The notes under the pieces: model-generated
What the model saw: the letters and a program-made list of their open reading frames with translations, nothing else
Told to the model about the DNA's origin: nothing
Databases searched by the model: none
Position numbers and translations under genes: made by a program
Origin: Astropecten irregularis
Taxonomy: Eukaryota; Echinodermata; Asteroidea; Paxillosida; Astropectinidae
Length of the DNA stretch: 64,000 bases
Assembly (NCBI GenBank): GCA_963971285.1
Contig: OZ020254.1
Span: 17,638,932 to 17,702,931, forward strand
Reading direction: 5' to 3'
Shown: positions 19,758-60,720 of the stretch, piece by piece
Position numbering within the stretch: the stretch's first letter is position 1
How the letters are laid out: each line of letters starts with the position of its first letter

Positions 19758-22650
19758 CTGTATAATACGCTAGCTAGTTAATATTATAATTTTCTCAGAA
19801 TTATAAGCCTTTAAGTGAATTATGGCATTGGAAAAGAACGATATTATTTCCTTTTTGTGTTGACCATTCATCATCCCTTGTTAAATTTACAAACGTATAA
19901 TTTCTGAATTCAGTCTGGCCTATCGCCGTCTGATAAAGATTGTGACTGAATCGAAGCCGTGGTTATTAATAACTGACAAGGAGAGTGTACCTTTTGCTAG
20001 GATCTAGAAAATAATCAGTGTGAAAATGATGAAAAATAATGAAACACAATTAAATGAAACGTAATTTGCACCAATTAAAGCCATATCAAAGTCGATTTGA
20101 ATGCAAATAAATTATGCAAATAATTATGTACAAAAATTAATATTATCCATGAAAAACCTGACGTACAAACAAGTATTAACAACCATGTTTGTCTTTATAG
20201 CCATCGATAAAAGTGTATCATTAATTAATTTGTTTTACCTTGACTTTTTTTCGTGACAGTCATGGGCCTAATAAATCGACAAAAAACATAACTCACCACA
20301 AAATATATCAAAGATTAATTCATTTGATTTCTGTCACTCGGTTTACTCAACCACTGTGACATTGGTCGTTTAAACTGTTTTATATAGTAGCCTATTGTAT
20401 TTCGCATTATTTTCACAAATTAATTAAAGATCTCATTGGCTTTGTTCGATCTGCAATAATTACCTTTGTGACTATGAAAAGGCTATTGATTAATGTATGT
20501 GAGTCTACAACTTGAAGATAAGTAATAAAAAGAAAGCAGACTAAACTGGCAATTATATTAATTCTGTTTCGCAATGTTTTGTGTGTGTAATTGACTTGAA
20601 TCGTCTGATGTTCATGTATTAAGACTTAACCAGACGCATCTTTTATTAGATTCTTTGATTCACTGTTTGGACTAAAATTGTTTAATATTTCTTCAGAAGT
20701 ATAAACTATCAAACACCTACGGCGATTCTTAATTCCACCCCTATACATAATTTCCATAATTATTAGTCAGTTACAACATCGGTGAGCTGCATAATATTCT
20801 AAAAACGCGGGACCCCTCTTAATTTGAACATTATGCCTCCGATGTATGATCCAAACCAGGTGCTTTAAATTTGAATATTTTTTTATAAGAATTTGCCGCA
20901 ATTTTCACGTGGCCTAATTGGCAAACTGGAATTATTTGTGCAGGAGCCCTGGATGGATCGCGGGTACAAAACTCGATGGGGCATGAACATTATTATCAGA
21001 TAATTATAATGATAATCAATACAAAAAGAAGTCAATGCTGCCGTTAAATGATAAACCTTTCATTTAAACGTGAGTTGTTCAAGATTGGTTATGTTTGTTC
21101 CTGGAAGGGACTAGAATTCATTCATTTCGACTAGACGGGCGGGGATATTGGAAATATTAATGACAAAACGAGGCATCTATAATTTGTATCTAGCGCCCTC
21201 AATTCAAGCAGGGATTTTTTCTAAACTTTAAAAAAAAAAGGCATTTAATATGTATTTAGCGCCCTCAAGCGTTCATTTTCAAGCTATGTCTAGTTCCTAG
21301 ACGTTTTATTAATAAATTCAACGATAAATACAGACGGGAGCCCGACGATTAATCCAATGGTTGGCACATGCATCTTCGAAAGTGTATCATTGGATGTCAA
21401 AACAACCCGTAAATGTCTCTTTTCAGATATACTACCCCAGTTCTACACAGCTGAGATTGAAGTTCATCATAACGTGCATCCAGTAAGTTAACTTTTAAAG
21501 CATTTAACGCCTATTTCGGCAATTGTGAATGATTGTAAAGTTCGGAACTCGCCTGTGTTTTTCTAATTAGCGTAACGCACACAGCATGCGCCAAGTGAAG
21601 GGGATGGGCGTGCACATGATAAACACACGGGGGAGGGGGTCCTTACTCCTTACATATGTACTTTACAATCGCCGCTTTTTCTGTATAGGCCTAGTCCATC
21701 AGTAGAATTCTTCCCTTTATTGCCTGTGTCCAAACAATTTAGAAATTGATGCCCAGGTTTAACATTTTAAATGCCACACCCCCTTCCTCATTTATTTTGG
21801 GGGTGTGTCCCTAGTTTTAGCCCCATGCCAAAATAGTTAGTTGGCCATTCAACCACGATTGTGGACAAGTGGTTCCCAAAACTAAGGAGAGGACAAGTGG
21901 TTTCGAAAACTAAAGTTTTTATAGCTTCTAGTACTGCAGCTCCCAAACAATATTTTTAATTTTATTCCAAAGTTCCTGAGTCCTTAAAAATAACCCTAGA
22001 TTCAAGAAATTTCTCTAATATTTCAGTGAAAAAGTACATTTTTCTTACCAGCTTCTTGGTATACACCCTGATACAAGTAGTTTTAGGAACCACTTGTCCA
22101 CAATTACCCATTTAACAATTTTCATAATTGCACTGGATTATTATTCGAAATGGAATGATCAAACGTTAATAATTCCACTAAAACCATCAACATTGTGCAT
22201 AAACCCTATGGGACTGACGTAGAACATTTTGAAAAAATGGTTGTCACAGCATTCGAAGTGTATCATTGTAGGTACAAAAACACCTGTAAAACTCACTTTT
22301 AAGATATGCTACCCCAGTTTTACACAGCTGAGATTGAAGTTCGTCAGTGGAATTCTTTCCATTTAAACCTGTAAACTAATCACCCAAAAGAGTCTCTTTG
22401 TTACTGTGAGTTCAGCAGATTCAGGTTATTGTCTTTTGGGATGGTTCAAATTAGTAGCCCATAGAATGTAACAGTTGCGTACATAAACCAAAGCCTATCA
22501 TGGATTCATACAGGCTTTTGCTGATTGGTCAACCTTTTGTCATTTTTTGTCACAGGTTTGATTTAATCAACTTGGTTCAGCCTAATCTTAACTGATGCCA
22601 AGATTCCAGATGTTGTCAAGGCAACCAGCTGTCCAGACAGTCAGGCAACC
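19758..22650. other. Intergenic AT-rich region
   Basis: I see no supportable gene. Two diverged direct repeats share CCAGTTCTACACAGCTGAGA-like sequence (21405-21480 and 22245-22350). An inverted pair has GTGGACAAGTGGTTCC near 21862 facing GGAACCACTTGTCCAC near 22083. A short direct repeat with TAGCGCCCTCAA occurs at about 21190 and 21259. Confidence 0.6.
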
Positions 22651-22742
22651 TATCAGAACATTCATGACTATCCTACTCTCCTACCTCCCCGCCAGCCAAC
22701 CAGCCTGACAACCAACCTGTCAACCAACTGGACAGGCTCCTG

Positions 22743-23480
22743 GACAGCCTCCAGTCAGAGCATTCATGGCTACGCTACAAGACTACCTACCAGCCAGCCA
22801 ACCAGCTGCCAACCAACTAGACAGCTTTCTGGTTTATTGGGAGACAGTCACCAGTCATCCAGCCAGTCATCCAGCCAGTCATCCAGCCAGTCATCGAGCC
22901 AGTCATCCAGCCAGACATCCGGGGAGTCATCAAGCCAGTCATCCAGCCAGGGGAGTCATCCAGCCAGCCATCCAGACAGGGGAGTCATCCGGTCAGTCAT
23001 CCAGCCAGTCATCAAGCCAGTCATCCGGGGAGTCATCTAGCCAGTCATTCAGCCAGCCATCCAGCCAAGCCAGTCATCCGGGGAGTCGTCCAGCCAGGGG
23101 AGTCGGGGCGCCAGCCATCCAGCCAGGCGAGTCATCCAGCCAGTCATCCAGCCAGTCATCAGGGGAAGTCATCCAGCCAGGGGAGTCATCCAGCCAAGCA
23201 GGTCATCCAGCCAAGCCAGTCATCCAGCCAGTCATCCAACCAGTCAGAGCATTCATGACTATGTTACAAGACTACCAACCTGGCAGTACCTGCCAGTCAA
23301 CCACCCTGCCAACCAACTGGATGACCTTCTGGTTTATTGGAAGACAGTCACAAGCCTTCCAGCCAGTCATCCAACCAGTCGGAGTATCCCTGACTCCCCT
23401 ATGGAGCCAGCCAACCTGCCAGCCAACCAGCCTGGCAACTGACCTGACCAGCTTTCTGGTTTATCAGGGAGACAGGTACC
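22743..23480. repeat. Minisatellite, CATCCAGCCAGT units
   Basis: About 8-12 bp units of CATCCAGCCAGT with GGGGAGT variants repeat from about 22855 to 23240, inside longer units containing AGAGCATTCATGACTA and TTTCTGGTTTATTGGGAGAC. The same longer unit appears inverted at 60050-60720. The 242-residue frame across it is a by-product of the repeat. Confidence 0.85.
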
Positions 23481-23826
23481 AACCAACCAGTTAAACATTT
23501 TATTGGTGAGAACGTGACTGTCCAACTTCCCACCTAACCAGCCTTCAAGTCTATCAGGAAAAAATCAGGTCTCCAGCCACCCAGCCAATGAGAATGTGAC
23601 TGTCCAACTAGCCAGCCTTTTAGGAAGCAGTCATCCAGCCATTCAGCCATAACTAGAAGATGCCTCACTTGGATTGGGACAGGTACACTTTAACAATTAT
23701 TGCTAGATTTTCAAACTTGCTTATGTTAGGGCTTGTGGAATGATGATGGACTCACTGGACAGGTCTGTATGACGTTCACGATACCTAAGCAAGAGGACAA
23801 AGACTTGGGTCTTCAGGTCCCTTATC

Positions 23827-24228
23827 TTGCCTGTCTTACTCTGTGATTGTGAGACAGGGACTTTGGCTGGGGGCCTGGGGAGGCGACTCAATTTCTTTGG
23901 TTCTGGGTCTCTGAGAAGGATCCTTCGGGACCGCTGGTCGGACCATGTGTCTAACGAGAGGTTGCTCAGGAAAAGTTGTGAGATAAGTGAGCGCCAGATG
24001 CAGCTATACGGTCATGTGGCTCAATTCCCTGTAAGTGATCCTGCCAGGCGAATTCTCCCTATTAGAGAACCTACTGGTAGGACTCGCCCAGTAGGGCGTC
24101 CACCTGACACGTGGTTGTGTCACATAGACCGTTATTTTGCTGGGGTGGGAAAGGGTCGCAAGGCTGCCTGGGGGATGACTATCAGGAGACCAAAGGAGTA
24201 CCACTCGAAGGTAGATGCAGATGTTTGA
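23827..24228 (+). pseudogene. Non-LTR retrotransposon RT C-terminal fragment, copy 1
   Basis: The frame contains LRRILRDRWSDHVSNERLLR, then QMQLYGHVAQFP, a DPARR segment, VGRPPDTWLCHI and RKAAWGMTIRRP. This order (RI/RW-x-D-x-SNE, LGHV-R, GRP-TW, W-x2-A) is the standard end of LINE RT proteins, which I recognise from the family. There are about 110 residues with no RT core and no 5' part. It sits in the left palindrome arm; the right arm has unrelated sequence at this point. Confidence 0.8.
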
Positions 24229-25007
24229 TTCAGTTTCATTTCCCTTAACACTCTGTTGATTTCCAATGTTGTTTTCTTGTCACAGGTTTGATCTTATTCA
24301 ACTTTGCTGGACCTGATGTCCTGATCTGAGCTGATGCCAGACCCCCTGATTCCAGCAAGGCAACCAGTTATCTGTCCATCAGTCAAGCCCAGTCAAGGGA
24401 GACAGTCATCATGCAGCCACCCAGCCATCTAGTCTGACTGTTCAACTAGCCATCCTCTTAGGAAGCAGTCATCCAGTCATCCAGTCATTCAGCCTGCCAA
24501 GATGCCGCAGGTACAAACTTGATGTTATACATTCAACAGACTTGCATCTTGAAAGAGTATGAACTTTTCAACAGAAAGACTTGGTTTATTTCTTGATATT
24601 TTGCCAGCACAATTAAGCTTCAGAGGATTTGGAATCAGTTGCTTGTGAATTTGTATTCCTGTACCTTGTACATTGTCAATCACTGAGGTTAAGCTGATAG
24701 GAGAGTATTTATTTGGAGACCATACCCATTTTACAAGTCCATTTTAATGGTGTTTTCCTATCACAGGTTTGATCTCAACTGATGCCAAGACCCCAGATAC
24801 CAGCGTCTGTACTCACTGTATTTCCCTTCTGTACACATGTCTCATGTGGGAGCACATCATCTGGAATCAGTTATGCATCAATCAAGTAAGTGTGACTTCT
24901 CCTACTAAATGTTAGTCAAGACGATTAGCCTTAAAGGGATAACACATGATTGGTATGATGATGATAGTGAAAACCTTCCATTCAAATATATCTGCCTGAA
25001 AATGAGG

Positions 25008-25080
25008 TGATCAATGTCACCTGATGTTGTGTTACTGGTAGCGATGTTTCGGATGCTAGAACTGCTAGTTCAGGGAGAGT
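25008..25080 (-). pseudogene. Degenerate Penelope terminal fragment (hammerhead remnant)
   Basis: AGGTGATCAATGTCACCTGA is followed by GGTAGCGATGTTTCGGATGC and matches the minus-strand end of the Penelope elements at 27075 and 56341. The ribozyme core is damaged: the position of TCATCAG reads AGTTCAG. Confidence 0.65.
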
Positions 25081-25145
25081 CAGTTTAAACCTATTTACCT
25101 ACATGATACGTGAGCGCAAATGCGACTGTACGTTCATGTTGCTAG

Positions 25146-26031
25146 TAGTGCTGTGCATTTTCGGAGCTTTTGAAAACCGGAAAACGCTTTGAAAAAATTA
25201 GCGGTTGCCCGAGCTCCGATTCATAAAAATGAATGATAGCGCTATATTACGCACGTGTCGATAATGTGCACGATCAAATGATGCATAGCGCTGTATGTAG
25301 GAGTGTGTAAAACATGCTACAACGATCGTTGCGCCGACGTATACATTCAGTTTCTGGTCTCGATCTACGTGCGTGTTAGGGAATCTTGCAATGATTTGGT
25401 GCCGGCAACCTTACAGAATATTCAGTCAGAATCTTTCATAACTTGCTCAGCGTGACATGTCTCATTTCTTACCGAAAAATCTGCATTGAAGCCGGCCGAA
25501 ATCCACGGTACCGAGCGTGACTTGACTGCATGCACCAAATACACACGTTGTACGTACGACATGTAGGCTTCCACTTCCGGCCTGATTGCGAATTGGCGAC
25601 TGTGTACTGGTGTACAACGTATGCTTTGAATGGTGCGGCGCACATTACACATCGTGGAATTTTCTGGATGCAATGCCGCTGCTGCATGGTCCGGGCCATG
25701 CGGCCACGTGGTGGGCATGCGGTGTTCATGATGCATCGTACGCGATATGTTTACGTCTTCTTTCGAGCGATCGTCGCGTTCGGAAGGCTGTTCGCAATAT
25801 TTGTTTAATCAAGTTTGCGAAAAGTTTGTTTCTGCTTGGCAAAATGGACCCAAAACGACTGAAATTCAAGTATGTATTATACAGTATACACTTTTGGGGT
25901 TGTTTATTTATTGGGCAAACGTCAGTCTACTTTTAAAAATGTTGGTTTCGTATTCCGTTTTTGTAATTTTGAAACCGGATGGCAAGATTTTAAGCGGGAG
26001 CCCGTGAATCCGTTTTTGATGCACAGCACTA
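25146..26031. mobile_element. Non-autonomous hAT-like DNA transposon
   Basis: An 886-bp element with perfect 13-bp terminal inverted repeats TAGTGCTGTGCAT, flanked by the exact 8-bp duplication GTTGCTAG at 25138-25145 and 26032-26039. The 8-bp duplication and TAGTG ends are hAT hallmarks. It has split the second LINE tail; removing it restores collinearity with 23985-24100. It contains no transposase-like frame. Confidence 0.9.
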
Positions 26032-26039
26032 GTTGCTAG

Positions 26040-26235
26040 ATTCCTTGTAATCATCCTGCCAGATGGATTCTCTCTATGAGAGAATCTACTGGTAGGACTC
26101 GCCCGGAAGGGCGTCCACATGACACGTGGTTGCGTCAGATGGATTGTTATTTTGGTGAGATGGGGAAGGGTCGCAAGGCTGCCTGGGGGATGGCTATCAG
26201 GAGACCAAAGGAGTACCGCTAGAAGGTAGATGCGG
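26040..26235 (+). pseudogene. Non-LTR retrotransposon RT tail, copy 2 (split by hAT element)
   Basis: It continues the fragment that begins near 25100, up to the hAT insertion. CTACTGGTAGGACTCGCCC, GGGCGTCCACATGACACGTG and GGGAAGGGTCGCAAGGCTGC match copy 1 at 24070-24165. The frame is broken. Confidence 0.75.
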
Positions 26236-27074
26236 ATGTTTGATTCAGTTTCATTTCTTTTAACACTATTGATTTTCAATGTTGTTTTCTTGTCACAGGT
26301 GTGATTTCATTCAATTTTGCTGGACCTGATGTCCTGATCTGAGCTGATGCCAGGCCCCCTGATTCCAGCAAGGCAACCAGTTATCTGTCCATCAGTCAAG
26401 GGAGACAGTCATCATGCAGCCACCCAGCCCAGCCATCTAGTTTGACTGTTCAACTACCCATCCCCTTAGGAAGCAGTCATCCAGTTATTCAGCCAGCCAA
26501 GAAGATGCCACAGGTACAAACTAGAAGTTAAATACATTTAATGAACTTGCATCTTGAAGGAGTCAACAGAAAGACTTGGTTTATTTCTTGATATTTTCTG
26601 AATTTACTGACTAATAAGTAATTGTTTTTTTTGCCAGAACAATTAAGCTTCAGGGGAATTGGAAGTAGTTGCTTGTACCTTGTCAATAACTGCTGTTAAG
26701 CTGATAGGAAGATATTTATCTAGAGACCATACCCATTTTTCAAGTCCATTTTAATTGTGTTTTATTATCACAGGCTTGATCTCAACTGATGCCAAGACCC
26801 CAGATACCAGTGCCTGTACTCACTGTATTTCCCATCAGTACACACAACATGGCTGGTACCATGAGCATCATCTGGAATCGGTTATGCATCAATCAAGTAA
26901 GTGTGTGTTTTCCTAATAAATGTTAGTCAAGATGCTTAACCTTTAATATTGGATAATACATGGTTGGTAAGATAAAAAAAAAACAGAAACAGAAATCCTC
27001 ACATTTGACTTTCACAATATGATGATGATAGTAAAAACCTTCCACTCAAATATATCTGCCTGAAAATAAGGTGA

Positions 27075-28745
27075 TCAATGTCACACGATGTTGTGTTATT
27101 TTAGCAATGTTTCGGCTGCAGGAACTGCTAGCCTTTATCATGCAACTGAAGAACTGGATGCTGCGCGATGTGGTATCCGTTATATCCTGTTGGTCCACGT
27201 CCGTGTTCACCATACTGTGTTCTGCGGATGTCGAATGGGTCACTATAGTGGACGTCGTACAGTTCACTCTGTGGTTGGCTGGGGTGTGTTCTCGTCACGG
27301 CTTCGGTGTCCTCCAGTGGTTCTATCCGTTGTGTGACGGTGGTCCTGGTGCCGGATAGTGGCAAGCCAGAATCCGGGTTCAGCGGACTTCGAACAGGTCA
27401 CTCTAGTGGACATCGTACGGTTCATTTTGTGGTTGGCTGGGGGCGTGTCCTCGCGCGGCTTCAGCATCCTCCATGGGTTTCATCAGTTGCAAGCCGTGGT
27501 TGTGGTGCCAAAAAGTGGGAAGCCAGAAATGGGGATGTCAATGCCACTGTCCCAGTTGAAGTTCTGACTGAGGCGGATGTGAATGGCCTCTTTGATGCAT
27601 CTGGTGTACCAATGTTGTTGACGGTCGATACACTGCACATCGCCCCAGGTAGGGTTGTGGCCTGCTTCATAGGCGTCTTCAGCATTCAGCTACCGCCAAT
27701 CCATCCACATGGGGGAGTGTCACTTTGCGTTGATGGTCCTTGATCCTCTGGCCGATTGGTCTGCTGCTTTCACTGATGTTCATACACCTGGTTTCAATCG
27801 TTGCAGTCATAAACTCCTCCTCGTCTTCCTAGTGGGACTGGATCCTTCAGGAGGACAAGCTGGTTCCTCAAGGTGGTGGAAGATCAGAACACGGTATGGA
27901 TGTCATGCCCCTCAAGGATTCTCTTCAGCTGTCTGAAGATGCCATCCATCATCCATGAAGTTAAGTCCACTCCGTTTTGGTGCTGGTCCTGGGCGACGTA
28001 TGAAAGGTGATGGTAGGTGTTTGTTCGCTGTGAGGGCAGTGTGCAAACGGCATCTCTGGTCACCAGACGTGTGGCACGATCATGGACACACTTGGCCACT
28101 TCCCGCTTTATGGACTCAGGGTGGTGCAAGCCGAAAGCCAGGTACTGGTCAGTGTGTGTGGGCTTGCGTTTATACACAGTGCTAGTCAGGCTGCCGTCCT
28201 GCTCTCTTTGGTCCAGGGTGTTGTTCTCCTCGATGCTGAGCTGACCAATGGTCAGGAGGGTGAACAGCTGGTCTGACTGGTCTGCGATGCAATGACAATG
28301 GTGTCGTCGACATACCGCTTCCATACCGTGGGGAAACAATCTGGTGGGCAACTCTGTAAGGCTTCCTCCACGAACGTGTACAAGTTGGCGATGACCGCTA
28401 ACACCTGACTGCTCGTAGCTGCTCTGTCCGTCTGCTCATAGAATGTCCGTGGACTGCAAGATTCTAACAGGGTGAAGATCTTGGTGGGGAGAGCAAGGTC
28501 CAGCTCGGCAGGTTCCGGTCTTTTTCCATGTGTTGTAATGCCACTCTGCATGCGCCTTATATGGGACTGAACATCTATTAGATGTTGGTAAACAACAACT
28601 TGACATTAAAGGAGATCAGCGCCTCGTGGTGGTTGATCCATTGTCCGTGGAGGAATTCCACAAAATGTCATGGAGTTGGGCACCATGTTCACTGTGTTGC
28701 TAGTCAGTAGAGACTGGATCCCTGCCAAGTACAGTGTACTTGGAT
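27075..28745 (-). mobile_element. Penelope-like element, minus-strand copy (RT and GIY-YIG remnants)
   Basis: Read on the minus strand from about 28745. RT pieces include FTLLESCSPRTFYEQTDRA, KRYVDDTIVIAS with an intact YVDD at 28314-28303, and KPTHTDQYLAFGLHHPES; KRILEGHDIHTVF follows near 27920. Downstream, damaged GIY-YIG-region sequence and the Penelope 3' end follow to about 27075. Several frameshifts make it non-coding. It is 5'-truncated and meets a plus-strand copy head to head near 28750. Confidence 0.85.
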
Positions 28746-28754
28746 AGGTCATAC

Positions 28755-30350
28755 GCAAAAGAGCTCATGTCTCCACTAACCGGCAACACAGCAAACATGG
28801 TGCCCAACTCCAAGGCCTTCGCGGAATTCCTCCGCAGACAACAGGTCAACCACCACGAGGCATTGATCTCCTTCAATGTCTAGTTGCTGTTTACCAACGT
28901 TCCCATTTAAGGCTCATGCAGTAGCCTAACAACATCTGGAGGAAGACCAGAACCTGCCAAGCTGGACTTCGCTTTCATCCACCAAGATCGCTACCCTGTT
29001 GGAGTTCGTCTTGCGGTCCACATATTTTCTGCATGAAGGGACGTTCTACGAGCAGATGGAAGGAGCCAGCTATGGGCAGTCCCATCTCGGCGGTCGTCAC
29101 CGACCTGTACATGGAGATATTCAAGGAGGAATGCCTTTCAGAGTTGTCCGCCCCGGTTGCCGCCCCACGGTATGGAAGCGGTATGTTGATGGCACCTTTA
29201 ACATTGCACAGTCTGACCAGCTGCTCGCCCACCTGAACAACCACCAGCCCAGCATCCAGTTCACCATCGAGGTCGAGGAGAATAACATCATCTCCTTTCT
29301 GGACACCCTGGTCCATAGAGACCCCGACAGCAGCCTGACTAGCACCATTTACCACAAGGCCACGCACACCGACCAGTACCTGGTTTTTGACTTGTACCAT
29401 CCTGGGTCCATAAAGCGAGGGGTGGCCGGTGTGTCCACGATCGTGCCTCGCATCTTGTGACAAGACTGCGGTGTACGGCTGCTGAGAGATGCGGTGTGCA
29501 AGCTACCCTCATTGCGAGCCTCATACCCTCGAGAACAAGCAGATCCCTTCATCATGTTCATGGATGACATCTCCAAATTGTTTAAGAGAATCCTTGAGGG
29601 ACACGACATCCATACCGTGTTCTGATCTTCCACCACCTTGAGGAACCAGCTTGTCCATCCGAAGGATCCAGTCCCACCAGGAAGATGCAGAGGAGTTGTG
29701 TACATCGGTAAAACCGGCAAACCAATTAATTTGCAATAGGATTAAGGAGCATCAGCGTGACATGAGGCTCTCATGTGTGGATGGATTGGCAGTTGCTGAA
29801 CACGCCTGGGAAGCTGGCCACCACCCTAACTGCGACGATGTGAAAGCGACTGTGAGCAACATTGGTACACCAGGCGCATCAAGGAGGCTATTCACATCCG
29901 CCTCCGTCTGAACAACATCAACTGAGAAAGCGGCATCGACTTCCCCAGATTCCCCATTATCACATGACCACCACCCTGTGTCAGATGGAACCACCAGGGA
30001 ACATCAGAGCCGAACGCTCCCAGCAGAATGTGGAGTGGCCCATGGGACGTCCACACGCTGGCATGAACCGGTGAACAGATGCCAGGCAATGGATGGAACC
30101 ACCCGAGGATACTGAAGCTGCGCCGACGACACACCCCCAGCCAACCGCAAAGTGAACTATACGACATCGGATAGAGTGATCCATTCAACGTCCGCTGAAC
30201 ATGTTACGGTGAACATGGATGATGTGGACCAACAGGATATAACGGACACATCAGCATACAGTTCTTCAGTTGCCTGATGAAGGCTAGCAGTTCCAGCAGC
30301 CGAAACGTCGCTACCAGCTACACGACATCGCATGACATTGATCACCTTTT
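28755..30350 (+). mobile_element. Penelope-like element, plus-strand copy (RT and GIY-YIG remnants)
   Basis: RT pieces run in order: FAEFLRRQQVNHHEALISFN (about 28800), FLHEGTFYEQMEGA, AMGSPISAVVTDLYMEIFK in another frame, KRYVDGTFNI (29179-29208; the second catalytic Asp of YVDD reads Gly), VEENNIISFLDTLVHRD and KATHTDQYLVFDLYHPGS. A GIY-YIG endonuclease region follows at about 29690-29910 (VVYIGKTGKP, RIKEHQRDMRL, VAEHAWEAGHHP). RT followed by GIY-YIG is diagnostic of Penelope-like elements. Stops and at least two frameshifts make it a relic. Confidence 0.88.
30262..30325 (+). ncRNA. Hammerhead ribozyme motif, Penelope type
   Basis: CTGATGA at 30274-30280, stem II GGCT (30282-30285) with AGCC (30298-30301), GAAA at 30302-30305, then CGTC with predicted cleavage after C30309. 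All conserved core bases are present. Stem III is only the self-complementary ACGT, as in dimer-forming hammerheads reported in Penelope-like elements. Activity is inferred. Confidence 0.78.
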
Positions 30351-30600
30351 TTCTTGTCTGTGTCTACCTTGATGAATAGCCATTTCCTTTCTAAATATCT
30401 GTTTCCTATCATTGAATAAGTTTTCATTGATAAATTAGCCAAAATTTTATTATTTTATGTCTGCCAAATCTGTTTAAGTATGAGTGCTGTTCTCTGACCT
30501 TTACCAAACATGTGTTATCCCATACAAACAATACATTTTCCAATTTCCATCACTGAATTTATATTGGATATGGATTTAGTTGTATCAGTTTAGGCCATAG

Positions 30601-31061
30601 AGCTATATTAAAATTACTAGAGCGCTAGCTCCGTGTTGAAAGTGATGCCTGCTGGGCGCATCCATGTTTGTGCACAAACCTATGGAAAGCCCACAATTTT
30701 GGACATTTTTTGTACGTTCATTTGCATACCTGCGTTGTGTTCTATACGGGTGCGTCATCGAAGCCAAATACGCCCGAAATCCGACGCACCCTCGGTAAAT
30801 GCGTGTTTCATTTAGGGCCGTGCGCGCACATGCTCTGCACTTCAGTCACGCAATGATTTCATGCGTCATAAAGACGCGCTAGGTACCGTTCGCGCATACT
30901 TGAGCGTTGCATATAGAGTACACTCTTCGAAAGGCATTCCAGTCAAAGTGTTCTTGTTCCACAGACACGCACACAAATTCAAAATGACTGCGCCCAGACG
31001 GCTTCAAAACGTCTACTCACGGAGAACGCAGAGCTAGCGCTCTAGTAATTTTAATATAGCT
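30601..31061. mobile_element. MITE with perfect 31-bp terminal inverted repeats
   Basis: Bases 30601-30631 (starting AGCTATATTAAAATTACTAG) are the exact reverse complement of 31031-31061. TA dinucleotides flank it one base out. The interior is CpG-rich compared with its surroundings. It is absent from the corresponding part of the right arm. Confidence 0.87.
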
Positions 31062-31530
31062 GTATGGTTTTGGCCTATATACATGATATACAATTATTAA
31101 CCAATTTCTGTTTCTTTGACTGTATTAGGTGATCTTGTCAAGGCATTCTACCAATGAGATGTCACCCATTCCAGTGATGTTGCCTGTCCAGTACTAGAAG
31201 GAGTCGTCATAAAGTAAATAAAATAATTTTATCTATTTTTGGAACAATATTTGTGGAAACAATGGATAATAATTGTACTTCTATGTAAGGCAAAGAAAAT
31301 ATAGTTCTGCTTCTGATTACATGGCATTTCAGAAAAGGGTCGGTAATTTGGGAATTTTTGGGTGTCAATTTTTTTTTAATACAATCAAGGGAATTATAAA
31401 ACTTTTTTCAATTTTTCCAAATTTCTTTTTTAGGGTCGCGATCAAAAAATAGGGTTGGTTGTGTAACCGGAAGCAGAACTATTTTTGTTTGGCCTAACCA
31501 AGAATCCATTCAGCTTTAAACATTTATTTC

Positions 31531-32165: not shown

Positions 32166-32254
32166 ACTATAAAATGGAACTTAAAAATAAGTGGGCTTTG
32201 GTTTACCTCCATACATTGACATCTAGTTTTGTTGACTTTAGAGCGTGATCCAAA

Positions 32255-32834: not shown

Positions 32835-32947
32835 GTAGTTAACTATCAGCAAAGCTAGCTTACAACAATTTCCATCTTACAACACTGGGACCCTGTCCTA
32901 TTAAGGATGGAAGCAGTCAGACAAAAGGATTGTATAAGTTGTACTTT

Positions 32948-49429: not shown

Positions 49430-49890
49430 ATATCTGCATCTGAAATTTCTTTCCTAACATCAACCGTTTGTTTTGCAAATACATTTCCCATTAGGAATTT
49501 TTACAGGACTTTTGATACATTGCAGCGACAAAGAAAAATTCATTCTAAACAAAAGATTCTTAGTTAAATATCTGCTGTAGCGATTGCTGTAAATATCTGC
49601 ATCTGAAATTTCTTTCCTAACATCAACTGTTTGTTTTGCAAATACATTTCCCATTAGGAATTTTTACAGGACTTTTGATACATTGCAGCGACAAAGAAAA
49701 AATTCATTCTAAACAGAAGATTCTTAGTTAAATATCTGCTGTAGCATTGCTGTAAATATCTGCATCTGAAATTTCTTTCCTAACATCAACTGTTTGTTTT
49801 GCAAATACATTTCCCATTAGGAATTTTTACAGGACTTTTGATACATTGCAGCGACAAAGAAAAAATTCATTCTAAACAGAAGATTCTTAG
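49430..49890. repeat. Tandem repeat of 163 bp, right arm only
   Basis: Three units start TCTGCATCTGAAATTTC at about 49431, 49594 and 49757 and are nearly identical. The left-arm counterpart (about 43100-43300) has only a single diverged unit. Confidence 0.85.
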
Positions 49891-50187
49891 TTACTGGGTT
49901 TTGTTTTCATTTTGAATTGCACATTTTGATTTAGTGTAAAAAATACACCAAGTTTTGAAGGGATAATCTGACTCAATTAAGGTAGCAGGTTACTTACTAC
50001 TGGTTTCAAGGGTGCCGTTATTCTGTGACCTTTCCAAATTGTCTGCGCTCCAAAATCAGAATTGCGTATTGCTTGACTGTGTTCGTCCACATTAGAAATA
50101 CTGTAGTCGTGTTGCACACCGCAAAATCACTTTCCTGCAAATACAAAAAGGAATACAAAGAAAGAAACTTTGATATGCGCGTCAACA

Positions 50188-50575
50188 TTCAAAAGTCAAT
50201 ATTCTTTGCATCTGTTCTGCTATTTCGCAAGTTCTCTCATTCGTGAAAGTCTAAACCTTTATATTTCTGTTGCATTGCTTGCGCTCTGATAAGAAATACA
50301 AGGTCATAGATAAAAACATTCAAAAGTCAATATTCTTTGCATCTGTTCTGCTATTTGGCAAATTCTCTCATTCGTACAAGCCTAAAACCTTTACATTTCT
50401 GTTGCATTGCTTGCGCTGTGATAAGAAATACAAGGTCATAGATAAAAACATTCAAAAGTCAATATTCTTTGCATCTGTTATGCTATTTCGCAAGTTCTCT
50501 CATTCGTACAAGCCCAAAAACTTTATATTTCCGTTGCATTGCTTGCGCTATAATAAGAAAAACAAGGTCATAGAT
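50188..50575. repeat. Tandem repeat of about 130 bp, right arm only
   Basis: ATTCAAAAGTCAATATTCTT occurs at about 50188, 50319 and 50449 in near-identical units. The left arm has one copy, around 42345-42470. The 161-residue frame across these units is repetitive and is not a supported gene. Confidence 0.82.
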
Positions 50576-50999
50576 AAGGTTTTAAATGGCATCTTTGCGA
50601 AGGGGCTGCATTGCAAGTTGAAATGTGTTCCAGTCATACAACCTTTAGGTAATTTACATATGACCTCTGTGCTGTGTCAGGTTAATGTGTATAGAGGTCA
50701 CATGGAAATTGCCAGAAGTTTGTATTGTTGGAACTGTTTCAATAAGCATCTTTGAAAATGGTCCATAGTGAGAGGGCGCTGTTGATGCAGGATAAAGTCT
50801 GCTCAAATAGCGCCCTCTTACTGTTGTCCATTTTTCAGAGAGGCTGTTTGCAATGTAGTCCCTTTAAAACCAGTTATTAAGTGTACTCTTGGTTAACCAC
50901 ACATATTTGTAAATAGAGGGGGTACTTCGGGTATTGACAAAATAAAAACGCAAAAAGAGATCACTGTCTATCGTGTCAATTATTTTTTTTATTATTTTT

Positions 51000-53900
51000 T
51001 TTTTAATTGCAAGTGCCGGTTGGTGCGCCCTCTGCTGTCCAGAACATGAAGTAACTTAATGACCCAAGCACATCGGCTGATAAAGCGCCCTCTTGAGTTG
51101 AAACCAGACTTAGTGTGTCTGGTATTCTGCTCCATAGGCGTTCTGCAACACACATTTCAACAAGCTCATTGCCTATGCAGGCTTTTGTTGGCATGCAAAT
51201 GCCGCGCATTGAAAAGACTAACAAAGGCTTGAACAAAGCTCAGAAAGGATTCATTGTTGTACACTTAAATCTTAATAGACCTGCATGGGTGTACTTCAGA
51301 CTTCACCCCCTGTTCGGGCAACCAGGCCGCTATATGTTCGTGGAAGACATTTTGGTGGTGAACTTTGGTGGCAAAAAAAAGCAAAAATAAAGGCCGATTC
51401 ATTTGGACACTTCCACTCCATCACTAATTGAGTCCTTGACCCTAAAATAACAACAACTTCAGCCCAGATGATGATGTGCTGACCAGAGAAACAAAATTTC
51501 AACATGCAGCTTACTTCAAATTTTGGATTAACGTTTTTGCCCCCAAATTTGATAGTTTATTCAAATTACCCAATGAAAAACATGAACTCATGCGCAGTAA
51601 TGAAACAATCATGTCCTCATGGATTTCTTGGTTTCACTTGTGTAATAGAAGAATGCTACCAGTATTTTCTACAATAACCTGTTAATTTTATAGCTTAATT
51701 TAACTTTTAACCATCCTGGTGCTAAAATCTTATTGGCTGTTCCGACGTGAGTGTTCCAGTGCGGAACAAGTTTTAAATAGGTTGAGAAAAACTTATTTAG
51801 ATTATTTTTGTTATTATTATTTTTCATTATTCTTTATCACCCTTCCCTAGCTTTTATGTTGTGATTTTTGTTTTTATACTACACTTCTTATTATTAGCTT
51901 TATTTTTAAAGCTCAAAAGGTAAATCATATGAAAGCTTATGAGGCAAATTGGCATTAAAAACTTATCTAATTTGATCATTTATATTTTAGGAACATGGCA
52001 TAATTAGTCAATTATGAGCCCTATTCTTCATCTGCAATAGTACTGCTACATCTTGTAAATATGACATCATCATGATGTCATCAAAAAGACAATTTTCATT
52101 TTACCCCCGGAATAATGGCAGATCTCCCTGACATTTGGTGGGTATGATATCTGTGCTATATAATCTACCTGTTTAATGATGAAGTCATTATGACATCATC
52201 AGATATTGAGTTATTTAACTTTTTTTTATTCGTTCGTTCTTTAGAATTCAACCTACATGTGTATTTACGGTATGTCAAAACTGTTTGATATTTTCAGTGA
52301 TGATTTTGCTATACAGAATGGAAGAAAAAGTAATCTTAAAAGATGAAATTTAGGCTTTACACCCCTATATTTTAGTAGTCATAGCTGCGGATACAACCAA
52401 AGCTACAGAACGTTGTTATAAATTAGCCTAATGAGCAAATTAAAACATAATCGGAACAGCTTAGTGTTCATCCACGGGACGAACACTTAAATGTCTAGTT
52501 ATCATTTGTTTCTGTTGCAACATAGATCATCTATGTTCTTTTTAGTCAATGGACATTTCTATAACTATTGTTTTATTCCTATTTCTTTTGTTTGTCACAG
52601 TGATGCGACTGATTTTTATATGTTTATTATTTTTATTTAGATCTTGCTTGTTTTTAATCTCGATATTTACACTAACTTTATCAATATGTTTACCTATGTG
52701 GAAATAAATACTGAAGTGAACTAAAGTGAATTGACTCCTAATGTAGATAGATGGTTTATACCATAGGTTTAGGAATCCTAAACCTATTGCATTCTCTAGT
52801 CTCGATTATCAAGGTTTCCCATGGTACTGGTAGCATATTTTTTAAAGTGATTTATTGATTTATTCTAGATCTGCGGGAATAAATTAATCTTGGTGCATGC
52901 TAGTAAAAATGTTGAGAAGACCACTGGTTATATAAAGCCTTGATGCATGTCCTTAAATATGGCATTACTGAAGATAGTTGAGAGATTTTTCTTTTTTGTT
53001 TCAAGGTGGAAATCTTTCTTGTGTTCCAGAATTGAATAATTTTAAATCTGTATTACACAACTAATATTTAGGTTGAAGTTAATGCATCTTTCTTTAACTT
53101 GAATTCTGTTGTTTTCATTATTTGTTTTTGTTGCAACATCATCTGCATAATTTTGGCCATATATATTTGGGGCTTCTGAAAATGGTCCCATATTGGTTTG
53201 TTCCTAATTATTTTGTTATCTAAAATCGCTATTACACAATTAATGTTTAGATTGAAGTTAACGTAAATTTCTTATGTTTAACTTCTATTATTGTTTGTTA
53301 CTGTTGCAATGTGGAATTTATAAATTGTCTTTTTTCTTTGCAAGCCTTTAGGGGTTTCTGAAAATGCCCCATATTGGTTTGTTGCTAATTTTGATCTGAT
53401 TATTCTTTGATATGTCAGTTTCATTTAGTTTTCAAACTAATTGTACTAACTTTGTCAGTATTCTTAGGGTCAAGTTAATATGAAGATAACTTGCTAGGTT
53501 ATTCTATGGTTATTTTAGCCTCTATATTTTCATTTCTGTGGATTTTTGTTGCTTAAATTACTGTGGTCTTCTTAGCAAGATTTAATATTTGTTACAGCAC
53601 TAAGGAATATTATGTTATCATTCTTATCACAGCAATAAAGCTTGCTAAATATTTTAAGTGGTCCCTCTTGCCTTCTAGATCCGACACAACCCTAATTTCT
53701 ACTACACAAGTGAAACCAATGGTCAAAACCTGAGAATTGTAGCAAAGTAAACCAGCAATGCCAAAAAACTGTTTCTCTAATCATCACATCAACAACTGAG
53801 CAGAGGTCACCATCATCTATCAGGTCAAGAGCCCCCTCAGATCAGAAGCAGATGTCCTATGCAAAAGGGTTGGTCATCATGACCGGCCTGAAAAGAGACC

Positions 53901-54250
53901 TGGTTACACAGGAACAGTAAGATGAAGGGTACCAACTTAGGATAACAAAAGTATCAGTGCGAAAAAAACTGTGCGAAAAAAGGGTCCTCTGTCCTTCGCA
54001 CCAATCATACAAGCGCTACCAGCATCTTAGTGTACAACAATCAATTCCTTTCTTCTAGTTTTTGCCGCAAGCAGAATTTTGGTATGAGCTTGTCAAATCA
54101 TGTGAGGCAGAACACTTACAGAGTAGAACACCAGCAACACTGAAGACAGGTTTCACTCAAGCTGACGCATATCAACCAATGCACCCGGGTCATTAAAGTT
54201 GCTCCACATCCTATAGACAGCAGAGGAACGCACCAACCGGCACTCACATG
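51000..54250. repeat. Nested long-inverted-repeat unit in the right arm
   Basis: Mirror copy of 38630-41910. The outer repeat at 53690-54250 is nearly identical to 38630-39180, while the inner AT-rich part is clearly diverged. Confidence 0.75.
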
Positions 54251-56334
54251 CTCGTCTGAGCTTCTTTCCTATGTGTATTTGATCTGTACAGGATTTAAAC
54301 ACTTTAACAACAGATTATAACAATTTTAAATAACGATGTGAGAATTACTCCAACAAACAGAATCTAGATCAGCACCTTAAAATGTGACAATGTACATGGG
54401 AAGGAAAATTTAGACAAGAAACTGTGAACAGTTTTGTGCTGTCCAAATGAAAAAGCTTGTTTTTGCCTCTTTAGTTTTGAAGTGAAAATATTTTAAATCA
54501 ATTTTATCATGATGTTTTGAAGCGGTTTTCAATTTTGGGATACATAATGAACAGTTCAAGGCATTTGACATTATATTTCTGTAGGAAAAATTGCTACTAT
54601 TGAGTTCAAGAAACATGCACACTGTATATAAACACACTTTATGCATGCTTTTTCAAGGCTTCTGCATGAATTTTCATGCATTTTCTTGTACGAGCGTATA
54701 CAATTTTAGTTTGTTATTGTTGCATAGCAAGATACACACACAATAAGGAATTTGGCACATATTTTGTTGAAAATGATAGTTTTGAGTGTGAAATATGCAC
54801 AAAAATATGAATTTTTTTCAGTGCTTCTGCATGAATTTTCATGCATTTTCTTGTACGGACGCACACAATTTGAGGTTGTTATTGTTGCTTAGCGACGCAT
54901 GATCAATCTGTCTGTTGGAGAAACTCACACACCCACAAAGAGAAAACATTTATAAGTAAAAACCAATAAAATAGAATTTTAGAGTGCATTCATTTGAAAT
55001 GATGGAGTTGTTCATTAATTTGGGAAAAAAGTTATTCCCCCCCTCCCCTCCCCCCAAAAAAAAAGACCAAAAAAGAAAAGAAAGAAACCCTATCTTTTTT
55101 AAACCCCAAATTGAATGATGTATCTCAACCCCAAAAAATGACATGTGAATACCAGAATTAAAAAGAAACAATGTAACAGATGAATCTGAAATTGTGTCAA
55201 ACCCACATTTTTGGACATCTACAACCCCTGTCACTTCAAATGAATGAACCCTAAAACATGTAAAAACATAAACTTCAGATTATTAAGCAAAGATATGGTT
55301 CAGGATTGTGAATCACATTCAAACATTATGTAGGCCTAAAGATAATGAAATTTAAAGGGGTTTGTTTCAAGTCCCACCCAGGGGTACAACTGGTAAGAGT
55401 TTGAAATTGAGGAGGATGAGAAATTCATGTAAAATATGTAAAAAGGATTTTATGAGTGAAACATATCGACTCAATACTGTCTAATTACGGGCAGTCATGT
55501 ATTATGTCCACAAAGAGAAAAAAAGATGCTGATATTTTAGAAAAATTCCAAAATGACTAGAATTGATGTTTGAGAACTGGAGATTGAAAAGGGAAAAAGC
55601 TTTCCAAAATAGCACTGAAAGAAATTCATGTAAGAAAAGGAAATAAAAATGGATATTTTATACATGTCTAAATGTGATACCAAATCCTGAACCACTATGC
55701 AAGTTTTAGAACCTTTTACAATGAGAAGGGATGGATCCATTTGGAAAGGAAAAGAGGAAAGTGAAGTGGGTGAAAAATTGATGGCGCAGCAGCATGATCA
55801 AATTTGATGGCAGAATTTGGAAACTGAGAATGTTTCAGAGGAAAAGCCTGATCAATTGTGGAAAGTTGCCCCAACCAGGGGAAAAGGGACTAACATGAGC
55901 AGAAATACAAAGTAACGAGCAGAAGCGATGAACATTTTGCAGACATCCCCACCAAGGGGAAAAGATTTTTGGGGGCACAAGCATGACAAGGTGTAACATG
56001 TGATACAGAATTGAAATTGATTTGCCACCAAGGCAGTGTTATAATTTGGGGACTTACACAAAAAGTTAAAATATCATGAATCCATCCCAACTTTGACATA
56101 AACCCTAGCTAGCTGTCAGAAACACACAATGCACATGACCACTTTACACTGCATTTGACGAAATTCACAAGTTTAAGAGTTGTTGGCATTTGTTTGTATG
56201 CATAAAACCTGTACAAAGTTTTGGAAAAAGAAAGACCAAATCTACAAATTATTTTCCTCTTCATATCATGGCCATCTCAGGCAAGAATTTGACATTTTTT
56301 CAGATAAATTGCAAAAGCCAACTTATTCAGCAAT

Positions 56335-56675
56335 AAGGAAAAAGGTGATCGATGTCACGCGATGTCGTGTTGCTGGTAGCGACGTTTCGGCTGCTGGAAC
56401 TGCTAGCCTTCATCAGGCAACTGAAGAACTGGATGCTGCGATGTCCGTTGTATCCTGTTGGTCCGCTCGGGTGGGTGTCGTATACTTCACTCCGTGGGTG
56501 GACGGGGGCGTGTCCTCGGCGTGGCTTCGGTGCGCTGCGGTGGTTCCATCCATGGGGTTGCGGTGGTCATGTTGCTGGATGGTGGGAAGCCGGAATCCGG
56601 GAATGTAGCAGTTCCAGCAGCCGAAACGTCGCTACCAGCAACATGACATAGCGTGACTTTGATCACCTTTTTCCT
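56335..56675. mobile_element. Mini Penelope-derived inverted-repeat element
   Basis: It begins GGAAAAAGGTGATCGATGTC and ends with the inverted GATCACCTTTTTCC. Both ends carry the Penelope terminal sequence of about 70 bp in opposite orientation. The left one holds a complete hammerhead core (minus strand), the right one lacks CTGATGA. It is about 335 bp and is absent from the mirrored left-arm position near 36470. Confidence 0.8.
56370..56428 (-). ncRNA. Hammerhead ribozyme motif, minus strand
   Basis: On the minus strand: CTGATGA (56416-56410), stem II GGCT/AGCC, GAAAC and GTC (56388-56381). The core is identical to 30274-30309. The preceding GTTGC could pair with GC and GCAAC beyond the cleavage site. 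Confidence 0.77.
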
Positions 56676-57590
56676 TAACTGTAATTACCGCCACAAATAA
56701 TCCTTTCCTTGTTCAGTAATGATTATTAAACGTGAACATTCAGCTGTCATAGCATTGAGTGTTTCTTCAGTACAACAAGCAAAAAATACAAATGTATGCT
56801 ACAATAAATTACACATCAATGAAGTAAACAAAACTAGATGTCAATGTATGGAGGTAAACCAAAGCCCACTTGGTTAACTAGGTCCATAAGATTGTAATAG
56901 TTCATGTAATAGTTTTTCAGTTTTCAAGTTAAGGGGTCCCTGGTTCAAATCCCACCAGAGGCATCAATGTAGATTGAGCTTTTACTTGACAAGTTTCTCA
57001 GATAATCTAACCTTAAGTTTCTGGTTCAAATCCCACCAGAGGAACTATATCAGTGTTGAAATCCTTACGTCAAATTCACAACAAAGTAATTGTCCTTCGG
57101 CAATGCTACACATTCTTGATCACAGAATTGTAGCTTTGGGTTTTTCTCTCGCAGGTATTTGGTTGGTCTCTGGTTCAAATCCCACCAGAGGAGCCTGATA
57201 GCTGCAAGTTTTTAGGAGTAATCCTGCTGAGATTTACCACCTACATTGACATCTGACTTTACATAGTTACATAAAAACTTACAATTCTAATGCACAAATA
57301 TTATAGCAATGATAGATAAAATAATTCTATTTACTTTATGATGACTCCTTCTAGTACTGGACAGGCAACATCACTGGAATGGGTGACATCTCATTGGTAG
57401 AATGCCTTGACAAGATCACCTAATACAGTCAAAGAAACGAAACATAATTTGGTAAATAATTTTACATAAACTGACTAAATCCATATCAAATATATATAAA
57501 TTGATGGTAAATGTGTTGTTTTAAGGGATAACACATGTTTGGTAAAGGGTCACAGAACAGCACTCACACTTAAACAGCTTTGACATTTAC

Positions 57591-58100
57591 TGTGTGTCCC
57601 AAAAAAAAAACATACCCAATTTCAAAATGTTATGGAAAGAAATTGTATGTTTTAAGCTATTTGATTTTTTGTCTATTGCATTCACTATACTGGGTAAATT
57701 CTGACAAAATTTCAGTGCGATCCATTCATGCATCACCGAGCAATATACACTGTCTTGAAAACTCCATTAAACTACCACTACAAATGAGTGACAGTTGTGG
57801 TCATCTTAGTGGTGATCTGTGTGTACTGAATGTGGGCGGCCACATCGAGGGGAGATTTACAGATCACAACTAAGAATGTTAAGATGACCACCATTGTCAC
57901 TCAATTATAATGGAAGCAAAATGGACTTTTCCAGACAATCAGTAATTGCTCATTGATGCATGAATGGATTGCATTGAAAATTCATCAGAACATGGTCTGG
58001 GAGATTTTGAATGCATTATACTAAAAATCAAATACCTACACACTTACAATTCCTTTTCATAATTTTTTGAAAAATGGGTATCGTTTTTGGGGGGACACAC
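57591..58100. mobile_element. Hairpin-like MITE with GTGTGTCCC ends, right arm only
   Basis: TGTGTGTCCC followed by an A-run and CATACCCA faces ATGGGTATCG and GGGGGGACACAC. Further pairs inside, such as TCCATTCATGCAT against ATGCATGAATGGA, make most of the 510 bp self-complementary. Confidence 0.78.
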
Positions 58101-60049
58101 TGTCTTTAGCATAAAGAGGGTCCTTGGTTCAACTCCCATCCAAGGCACAATGTGGATTGAGTTCTCTACTTGATCATACGTGTCTGCAGGGCTCGAAATA
58201 TCCACTAGACCGAGGACCGAGTCTAGTGATTTCAGTGTCGGTCTAGTAAAGTGTGAACCGCACAAGTCCGGTTGTCTAGTGATTTTGTTTTCCTTGCACA
58301 AATAAAATGGTTCCTAAAAATGATGATTGTTGACACATCATTGCATACAATAATGGTTTTCCTATGTACATGAAAGCTACAGGTCTAGTGAAAAAAGTTC
58401 AGGTCTAGTAAAATGCTTCAGTTACTAGACCTGCTGTCCAGAGCTTTTATTCACTAAATTCGACCCCTGGTCTGGTATTTCAGGCAGATATATTTGAATG
58501 GAAAGTTTTTACTATCATCATCATACTGTGAAAGTCATCTGTGAGGATTTCTGGGATTTGTTTTATCTTACCAATCATGTGTTATCCCTTTAAGGTTAAA
58601 CATCTTGACTAACTTTTAGTAGGAGAAGTCACACTTACTTGTTTGATGCATAACTGATTCCAGATGATGCTCATGGTACCAGCCATGTTGTGTGTACTGA
58701 TGGGAAATACAGTGAGTACAGGCGCTAGTATGCAGGGTCTTGGCATCAGTTGAGATCAAACCTGTGATAAGAAAACACAATTAAGATGGACTTGTAAAAT
58801 GGGTAAAGTCTCCAAATAAATACTCTCCAATTAGCTTAACAGCAGTTATTAACAATGTACAAGGTACAGGAATACAAATTCACAAGCAACTGCTTCCAAT
58901 TCCCCTGAAGCTTAATTGTGCTGGCAAAAGTCTTTCTGTTGAAAAGTTCATACTCCTTCAAGATGCAAGTTCATTGAATGTATAACTTCTATTTGTACCT
59001 GTGGCAGTCCAAGTGTAGCATCTTGGCTGGCTGAATAACTGGATGACTGCTTCCTAAGGGGATGGGTATTTGAACAGTCAAACTAGATGGCTGGGCTGGG
59101 TGGCTGCATGATGACTGTCTCCCTTGACTGATGGACAGATAACTGGTTGCCTTGCTGGAATCAGGGGGTCTGGCATCAGCTCAGATCAGGACATCAGGTC
59201 CAGTAAAGTTGAATAAGATCAAACCTGTGACAAGAAAACAACATTGGAAATCAACAGAGTGTTAAAGGTAAAAATACATGATTGGTAAAGGTCACAGAAC
59301 AGCACTCATACTTTGTCTGATCAAACATGTACATGAAATAATAAACCTGTGAAAATTTGAGCTCAATCGGACATCTGAGTCATGAGAAAATAGCGAAAAC
59401 CCAACTAAATTTTTCTTATAAAACATGAAAAATGGTTTTGGTCTTACGCCAAGATCAAAACTGTTTTCGGTCTTTGTTTTAAATAATTTCTGGATAATAC
59501 AGCATTTCAGGTGGAAATATGTTGACATCTTCATACCTTGAGTGAAAGGGGATAACTAAAACAACTCAAGTGAGGGTGTCCTTTATGTTTGTTCCAAAAA
59601 TCGTTCGGACGAACGATCATTGGAAAAGACACTAAATCTTGATTTCCTTGAAAAACCCAGCATTGATGATGAACCAAGATTTCCCATGGTGACTGTTTGC
59701 ACTGTTTACGAACTGTCGAGTCCATTTTCTGTCTCAAACTCAATAATTGTTTTTTGGAGGCCTTGCAAATCCTATACGCCGCCTTTAAAAACATTGTGAA
59801 TGAAAATGAATCAGACAGCACATCTGTCACTGTCTTATTTCATGAAGATTATTTTAGCCCTGCAAGCACCACCAGATAAAATTTGCAACTTGATCCTCGT
59901 ATGGATGAACAAGTCTGAAAATCTAGCAATAATTGTTAAAATGTACCTGTCCCAATCCAAGTGAGGCATCCTCTTGGCTGGCTGAATGGCTGGATGACTG
60001 CTTCCTTAGAGGCTGGCTAGTTGGACAGTCACACTCTCATTGGCTGGGT

Positions 60050-60720
60050 GGCTGGTGACTGTCTTTTCATGATAGACTTGAAGGCAAGTTGGCTGGCTGG
60101 CAGGTAGGTACTTTTGTAGGATAATCATGAATGCTCTGATTAGTTGGATGACTGTCTGGATGGCTGGTGACTGTCTCCCAATAAACCAGAAAGCTGTCCA
60201 GTTGGTTGGCTGGCTGGCTGCTAGTGCTAGTCCCCAGATAGTCATGAATGCTCTGACTGGTTGGATGACTGGCTGGATGGCTGGTGACTGTCTCCCAATA
60301 AACCAGAAAGCTGTCAAGTTGGTTAGCTGGCAGGTTGGCTGGTTGGTTGGCTGGCTGGCTGGCTGCTAGTCTTGTAGGGGAGTCATGAATGCTCTGACTA
60401 GTTGGATGACTGGCTGGATGGCTGGTGACTGTCTCCCAATTAACCAGAAAGCTGTCCAGTTGGTTGGCTGGCAGGTTGGCTGGCTGGTTGGCTGCTAGTC
60501 TTGTAGGATAGTCATGAATGCTCTGACTAGTTGGATGACTGGCTGGATGGCTGGTGACTGTCTCCCAATAAACCAGAAAGCTGTCCAGTTGGTTGGCTGG
60601 CAGGTTGGCTCAACTTGGCTGGCAGGTTGGCTGGCTGGCTGCTAGTCCCCAGATAGTCATGAATGCTCTGACTGGTTGGATGACTGGCTGGATGGCTGTT
60701 GACTGTCTCCCAATGGAGAG
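60050..60720. repeat. Minisatellite of about 117-145 bp units at the right end of the palindrome
   Basis: CATGAATGCTCTGA recurs at about 60126, 60243, 60384, 60512 and 60657, each followed by GATGACTGGCTGGATGGCTG and TGTCTCCCAATAAACCAG. It is the inverse of the unit at 22743-23480. Confidence 0.85.

Follow-up and report, generated by a model that had tools for sequence, protein, structure and literature searches.

What does a palindrome tens of kilobases long represent in the genome of the starfish Astropecten irregularis: an inverted duplication of an empty locus, a mobile element, or a unit with a content of its own? We addressed this question in a window of 64,000 nucleotides (C18:17,638,932–17,702,931) from an assembly of 475.7 Mb in 168 contigs, where an initial annotation had described blocks between 22.65 and 60.7 kb that recur inverted and in mirrored order. 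The palindrome in the window (hereafter W) belongs to a family whose members are bounded palindromes that cluster near a few contig ends. We consider it probable, though far from assured, that a spliced noncoding-RNA gene, copied tail to tail, makes up the members of this family and was amplified together with its mirror; transcription of the gene is inferred from sequence.

The inverted, mirrored arrangement is real. Self-comparison of the window showed the inverted diagonal, with the axis near 46,546 and inner arms that are inverted and collinear (36,366–46,54x and 46,56x–56,824 by self-BLAST). Delimited as 36,366–46,546 (minus strand) and 46,547–56,824 (plus strand), these arms form a chain of inverted matches with 86.7% identity and a Kimura two-parameter (K2P) distance of 0.147 over 9,210 aligned columns. 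The top inverted match scored 3,887 bits, compared with a maximum of 37.4 bits in 20 first-order Markov simulations of the 22.6–60.8 kb region. Farther out, the left pieces at 22.62–32.24 kb pair with 56.82–60.71 kb in an order that is largely mirrored and interrupted; the left outer arm, including inserted material, spans 22,624–32,238 (minus strand) and matches 56,822–60,714 in inverted orientation, while the right outer arm spans 56,824–60,714 (plus strand) with a minisatellite at its end. A single minisatellite family occupies the two outer ends (22,697–23,490, plus strand, and 60,083–60,714, minus strand), as the initial annotation had stated. The arms are a mosaic in which segments at 93–99% identity alternate with segments at 52–86%. 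A spacer of about 165 bp had been proposed at the axis; the measured low-identity zone (46,409–46,671, its halves 62% alike) is of a similar order of size. Inverted arms of at least 10 kb around a short spacer characterise five further copies (A–E, below) as well as W.

The search for further copies returned a family of about 27 palindromes, bounded and at several loci. The axis sequence recurs on C18 between 16.7 and 20.3 Mb at 74–98% identity and, in part, on C1, C15 and C23 (all 30 candidates scored), and an arm block at 53,697–55,916 occurs in outward-facing pairs around most of the recurring axes (among 40 of 129 candidates scored). A 621-bp block in the right arm (53,690–54,310, minus strand as inferred), with its left-arm counterpart at 38,562–39,183 (plus strand; G000:C18:17677493-17678114, 98%), was searched genome-wide in its window version (40 of 113 candidates scored) and its C1 version (40 of 117). 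Each of the 80 scored places matches 609 or more of the 621 bases at 96–100% identity, and all fall on four contigs. They comprise at least 49 distinct copies, 31 on C18, 12 on C1, four on C15 and two on C23, which assort into 22 minus/plus pairs (21 at a spacing of 14.1–16.8 kb and one at 23.1 kb) and five singles. These searches thus give at least ~27 palindromes (17 on C18, seven on C1, two on C15 and one on C23), each ~25–35 kb in size where read; such counts are lower bounds, and weaker copies may exist elsewhere. The copies occupy the last 3.7 Mb of C18 (20.399 Mb), the first 0.9 Mb of C1 (39.04 Mb), the last 0.35 Mb of C15 (21.66 Mb) and the last 0.43 Mb of C23 (15.41 Mb), regions that together make up ~1% of the assembly. 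TTAGGG arrays terminate C18 and C23, and none was present in the first 2 kb of C1.

Further copies were read over 40 kb around each of five axes, A (C18:18.598 Mb), B (C18:19.252), C (C18:20.277), D (C1:0.751) and E (C23:14.985), and over 20 kb at another three, F (C18:16.745), G (C15:21.418) and H (C18:18.885). Each of A–E is a palindrome whose arms, minisatellites included, extend ~12–17 kb from the axis and are 81–93% identical to each other. Among these five and W, interspersed repeats aside, homology between palindromes mostly ends 13–16 kb out, in minisatellites; the limit lies farther out in two arms, one belonging to D (18 kb) and the other the left arm of W, which carries the insertions (24 kb). 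Bins 14.25–17 kb from the axis in the right outer arm of W match no other arm, and the flank beyond it (61,082–63,900) had no second copy among 40 of 927 candidates scored, its matches being a dispersed ~520-bp repeat; a larger duplication including the neighbouring DNA was rejected for W on this basis. The copies are therefore bounded and lie at unrelated sites, the evidence for W being its right flank, with one exception: A and B have ~5.8 kb of outer flank in common (87–92%), up to the end of the sequence compared. Palindrome ends lie within minisatellites, where junctions could not be placed and no target-site duplication was recognised. Because homology stops in this way and the A/B flank is shared, we take the unit to be bounded, with at least some copies made by larger segmental duplication. 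The clustering at contig ends, the A/B flank and the lack of a shared open reading frame (ORF) or of a definable target-site duplication suggest that a chromosome-end unit was amplified, in part at least via segmental duplication.

The arms contain segments that resemble exons on the inward strand, that is, the strand running from the outer end to the axis. The clearest, exon c, lies near the outer end (57,335–57,419, minus strand, in the right arm and 31,129–31,213, plus strand, in the left) and is flanked by a TATTAG acceptor and a GTAAAT donor in all 12 arms of the six palindromes. Its length is 85 nt in 11 arms and 81 nt in one arm of E. Ungapped pairwise identity is 0.983 within the exon (55 of 66 pairs, those of equal length), 0.90 at the acceptor and 0.92 at the donor, and falls to 0.42 upstream and 0.49 downstream, flank values that exaggerate divergence where insertions or deletions occur. 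Exon a (58,999–59,224, minus strand, with an AG acceptor and a GTACAA donor; left arm, copy 1 at 24,286–24,510, plus strand, and a second copy within 26,259–26,577) has 20 matches in W and A–E, ten of them full, nine recovered by direct search and the tenth from alignment. Nine copies measure 225–234 nt and have an AG acceptor (eight CACAG, one CATAG) and a GTACAA donor; insertions or deletions of four and ten bases inside exon a speak against coding. The minisatellite units look like repeated exon a content. Exon b (58,639–58,761, minus strand, with a CACAG acceptor and a GTAAGT donor) has left-arm copies at 24,767–24,885 and 26,774–26,896 (the latter on the plus strand), and is present in three copies in W and in a single arm of A, of B and of C; A and B share both splice sites with the W copies, whereas C keeps the donor and has other sequence at the acceptor. 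In five of the six copies of exon b a short ORF begins ATGGCTGG, which would reach 38 codons if b were spliced directly to c. In a general splice scan with weight matrices, an inward acceptor at 50,135 was present in all ten arms compared, and at that cut no outward acceptor passed. Such scans were weak overall and only the exon-by-exon alignments were convincing; an inward spliced gene is likely, not proven.

Conservation is not restricted to the exon-like segments. The 621-bp block is present in all 18 arms of nine palindromes with a mean pairwise identity of 97.9% and a minimum of 96.1%, and a second block at 50,600–51,570 (its left counterpart starting at 42,318 and running down) is likewise present in 18 of 18 arms with a mean of 94.4%, whereas the adjoining segment at 54,340–54,980 reached 79.1% and was collected from only ten of the 18. 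The edge of the 621-bp block near 54,300 has an identical position in the 12 arms compared. Group structure persists within it: a C18 query matches C18 copies at 97–99% and C1 or C23 copies at 96–97%, and a C1 query matches C18 copies at 96–97%. Some variant sites are common to distant copies. The initial annotation had raised duplication of an intergenic locus as one possibility; a unit with exon-like and near-invariant noncoding blocks in it does not amount to empty intergenic DNA.

A protein-coding explanation of these blocks was rejected. None of the eight conserved blocks, the 621-bp block included, has a frame that is open throughout in all 12 arms; no ORF of at least 140 aa is open in all six palindromes; and Pfam searches with ten ORFs were empty. 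The counterpoints to the lack of a conserved reading frame are the 38-codon ORF and a near-axis ORF of 143–153 aa, for which the window copy matched no Pfam family. A structured RNA within the 621-bp block was also rejected, as its predicted folding is ordinary on either strand (z-scores of −0.1 and +1.2). Rfam had no match at gathering score in the whole window, and hence no known structured RNA family; sub-threshold hits within 46,000–57,600 were mostly to microRNA models, around 46.4–47.0 and 50.6–50.9 kb. A search for transfer RNA (tRNA) genes found none.

The axis is flanked by six hairpins of 102–103 nt within 46,082–46,998 (46,082–46,184, 46,200–46,302, 46,340–46,441, 46,639–46,740, 46,778–46,880 and 46,896–46,998), all with fold z-scores between −3.0 and −10.7. 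The suggestion in the initial annotation that the axis leaves room for a cruciform is thus borne out in part, in the form of short hairpins beside the axis that recur in other copies. The hairpin motif gave 58 hits in 11 sources, of which two (longer, 113 nt, on C1) are not of the family. In an alignment of 46 of the 47 distinct hairpins (an odd one from C23, L026:9456-9554, was dropped), 84.9% of cells were paired compared with 82.6% after shuffling, and double changes numbered 78 compared with 48.5; pairs that showed double changes, however, were no more numerous than in shuffles (12 versus 12.4). Structural selection on the axis hairpins is therefore suggestive only.

The relationships among arms bear on how the family arose. 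In a tree of 11 arms over 5,686 inner-arm columns (the left arm of C, which aligned poorly, was omitted), one clade holds every right-type arm included (W, A, B and C) and another the left-type arms of W, A and B, whereas the two arms of D pair within their locus, as do those of E, all with support of 1.0. Because left and right arms form separate clades, the tree indicates that the palindrome predates its copying, for the C18 copies compared, and that whole palindromes were duplicated; the C1 and C23 arms appear either to have been homogenised or to have formed later. One patch of the right arm (54,300–55,900; partner ~36,950–38,560) departs from this pattern. There the two arms of W are 86–97% identical to each other (mostly 94–97%) and the right arm of W is only 77–92% identical to the right arm of A and the left arm of B; a tree of 1,376 columns unites the two W arms with support of 1.0. 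This 1.5-kb patch at 54.3–55.9 kb shows conversion between the arms, so that arms convert each other occasionally.

According to the reading that we favour, each arm would be a copy of a spliced noncoding-RNA gene with exons on the strand from the outer end to the axis, and each palindrome would hold two convergent, tail-to-tail genes. Selection would keep several noncoding blocks and the axis hairpins near-constant while introns and minisatellites drift, the minisatellites being apparent expansions of outer-exon sequence. The likeliest product would be an RNA with a structural or regulatory function, multicopy and transcribed from both arms; transcripts that cross the axis, if any, would be complementary over kilobases.

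Several observations weigh against a spliced noncoding-RNA gene, beside the way in which ungapped comparison inflates the divergence around exon c. Exon a is full in just ten of its 20 matches, with one full copy in B and none in C, and neither D nor E yielded an exon b. An exon chain reaching a 3′ end was not found. Conserved splice sites are few on either strand in the general scan, with seven outward donors and five inward ones, and another scan passed one outward acceptor (48,063) beside five inward. The 621-bp block has no clear splice edges, crosses a possible inward donor and folds ordinarily, and its uniformity could also come from very local conversion between copies. Finally, the near-axis ORF is open in W, A, B and C (four of six palindromes) and closed in D and E, and some copies might code, through this ORF or, in some C18 copies, through the 38-codon b–c ORF.

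Among the alternatives, the one that survives best is a functionless mosaic of segmental duplications near chromosome ends, in which blocks are alike through recurrent ectopic gene conversion only. The clear conversion patch in W, the pairing of C1 and C23 arms within their loci, the flank common to A and B and the variant sites of the 621-bp block that distant copies have in common are all expected of such a mosaic. Subtelomeric segmental duplications comprise blocks common to several chromosome ends, and the present family likewise occupies several ends and includes a shared flank; what is repeated here, however, is a palindrome whose symmetry and spacing are preserved. We regard the functionless mosaic as unlikely, given that the 621-bp edge near 54,300 is fixed in the 12 arms compared, that group structure survives inside the block and that exon c stays conserved between its splice signals in every one of 12 arms.

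Next comes a non-autonomous element of the giant foldback or long-terminal-inverted-repeat type, with a transposase encoded elsewhere and a preference for chromosome ends; it, too, is unlikely. Foldback and long-inverted-repeat transposons have inverted arms, repeats at their ends and several bounded copies, and all three features are found here. The bounded unit occurs at many sites and in both orientations on C18, outer flanks are mostly dissimilar among the six palindromes, and there are hairpins near the axis. The initial annotation had left the choice between an inverted duplication and a foldback element to bounded copies at several loci, and such copies exist; yet the six palindromes have no open ORF of at least 140 aa in common, and the window copy of the ORF that is open in four of them matches no Pfam family. 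No transposase was recognised in the six palindromes compared, although copies that were not read could differ. No target-site duplication could be defined, the scored copies lie at four contig ends only, A and B share their outer flank, and the arms show exon-like conservation inside, which is a further difference from foldback transposons.

It is clearly improbable that the palindromes are a dual-strand source of Piwi-interacting RNAs (piRNAs) or endogenous small interfering RNAs (siRNAs), in which convergent arm transcripts would pair as double-stranded RNA and thereby silence repeats or chromosome ends. The putative convergent genes on long inverted arms, the position at chromosome ends and the transposons trapped in the left arm would suit such a source, but piRNA and siRNA clusters are not known for invariant exons and splice sites. 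An assembly artefact from fold-back or missed-adapter reads, or from haplotypes joined head to head, can be dismissed as extremely improbable: a palindrome is a known artefact shape, but the arms of W have diverged by 13% and carry one-sided insertions, the same axis occurs elsewhere on the same contig at 74–98%, and left and right arm types are consistent in W, A and B.

Sex chromosomes provide the best-known large palindromes in multiple copies, and these carry protein genes. The mammalian and willow sex-chromosome palindromes (PMC8981503, PMC7023750) resemble the present family in their long inverted multicopy arms and in gene conversion. Their arms are more than 99% alike, whereas those of the six palindromes here are 81–93% alike (86.7% in W, where conversion is seen only as a patch), and the family here has no recognised protein family and lies at four contig ends. 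The TTTY genes of the human Y chromosome (compare PMC11054740) are noncoding multicopy genes in inverted repeats, as we propose here; the present family differs from them in its chromosome-end position, its near-invariant blocks, its axis hairpins and its host organism. The portions of the literature consulted contained nothing on such palindromes in echinoderms or amphioxus.

The left arm of W is longer than the right because it has received a DNA transposon, a Penelope-like inverted pair and a local direct duplication (24,016–25,068 and 26,032–27,131). The transposon (32,241–36,366, minus strand) is 4.1 kb long with 14-bp inverted ends GAGCGTGATCCAAA and an intact ORF of 758 aa (32,951–35,224) that has no Pfam match. 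It is flanked by TTTA at 32,237–32,240 and 36,367–36,370, and the right arm shows the empty site; the 4-bp duplication is reminiscent of Sola elements. The Penelope-like pair (27,530–29,947; 69% identity) consists of broken reverse-transcriptase fragments, named by eye and without a hit in Pfam. An interspersed repeat of ~370 bp lies in the left arm (45,062–45,434) and left of the palindrome (14,967–15,334 and 7,258–7,624), and recurs in other palindromes and their flanks. The ~520-bp repeat at 62,998–63,515 occurs at 40 other places on many contigs at 93–95%, among the candidates scored. Three copies of a motif resembling a tRNA T-arm or B-box, GGTTCAAATCCCACC, lie in the arm at 56,945–57,190, and a perfect short hairpin ATGAGTGC..GCACTCAT at ~48,420–48,450 is near-constant across the 12 arms compared.

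Outside the palindrome, a neighbouring prominin gene named in the initial annotation found no confirmation in Pfam (three forward frames of 1–15 kb and one of 15–22 kb) or in PDB sequences (three forward frames of 1–15 kb), a weak negative because the frames searched were unspliced. Elsewhere in the assembly, the COX1 gene of C168 (16,335 bp), with TGA read as Trp and AAA at four positions, fits the echinoderm mitochondrial code; these four positions are Asn in vertebrate COX1. A COX1 that is open by the standard code (G000:C131:32162-33484) lies on what is likely a bacterial contaminant contig, and a partial COX1 with seven TGA codons (G000:C25:9951047-9952018) is likely a nuclear copy of mitochondrial DNA.

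As far as searched, the family is confined to a few chromosome ends, and it is apparently noncoding with constraint on both arms. It offers a natural series for dating how palindromes form, are copied and are repaired from arm to arm, and it suggests a multicopy RNA gene not described before. A bolder extension, which we hold only tentatively and think somewhat unlikely in full, is that the ~27 chromosome-end palindromes each make two convergent spliced noncoding RNAs, that the near-invariant parts and hairpins are structural, and that the mirror is kept for mutual correction of the arms. If this is true, the RNAs would act as structural components, for instance in chromosome-end chromatin, in pairing or in dosage.

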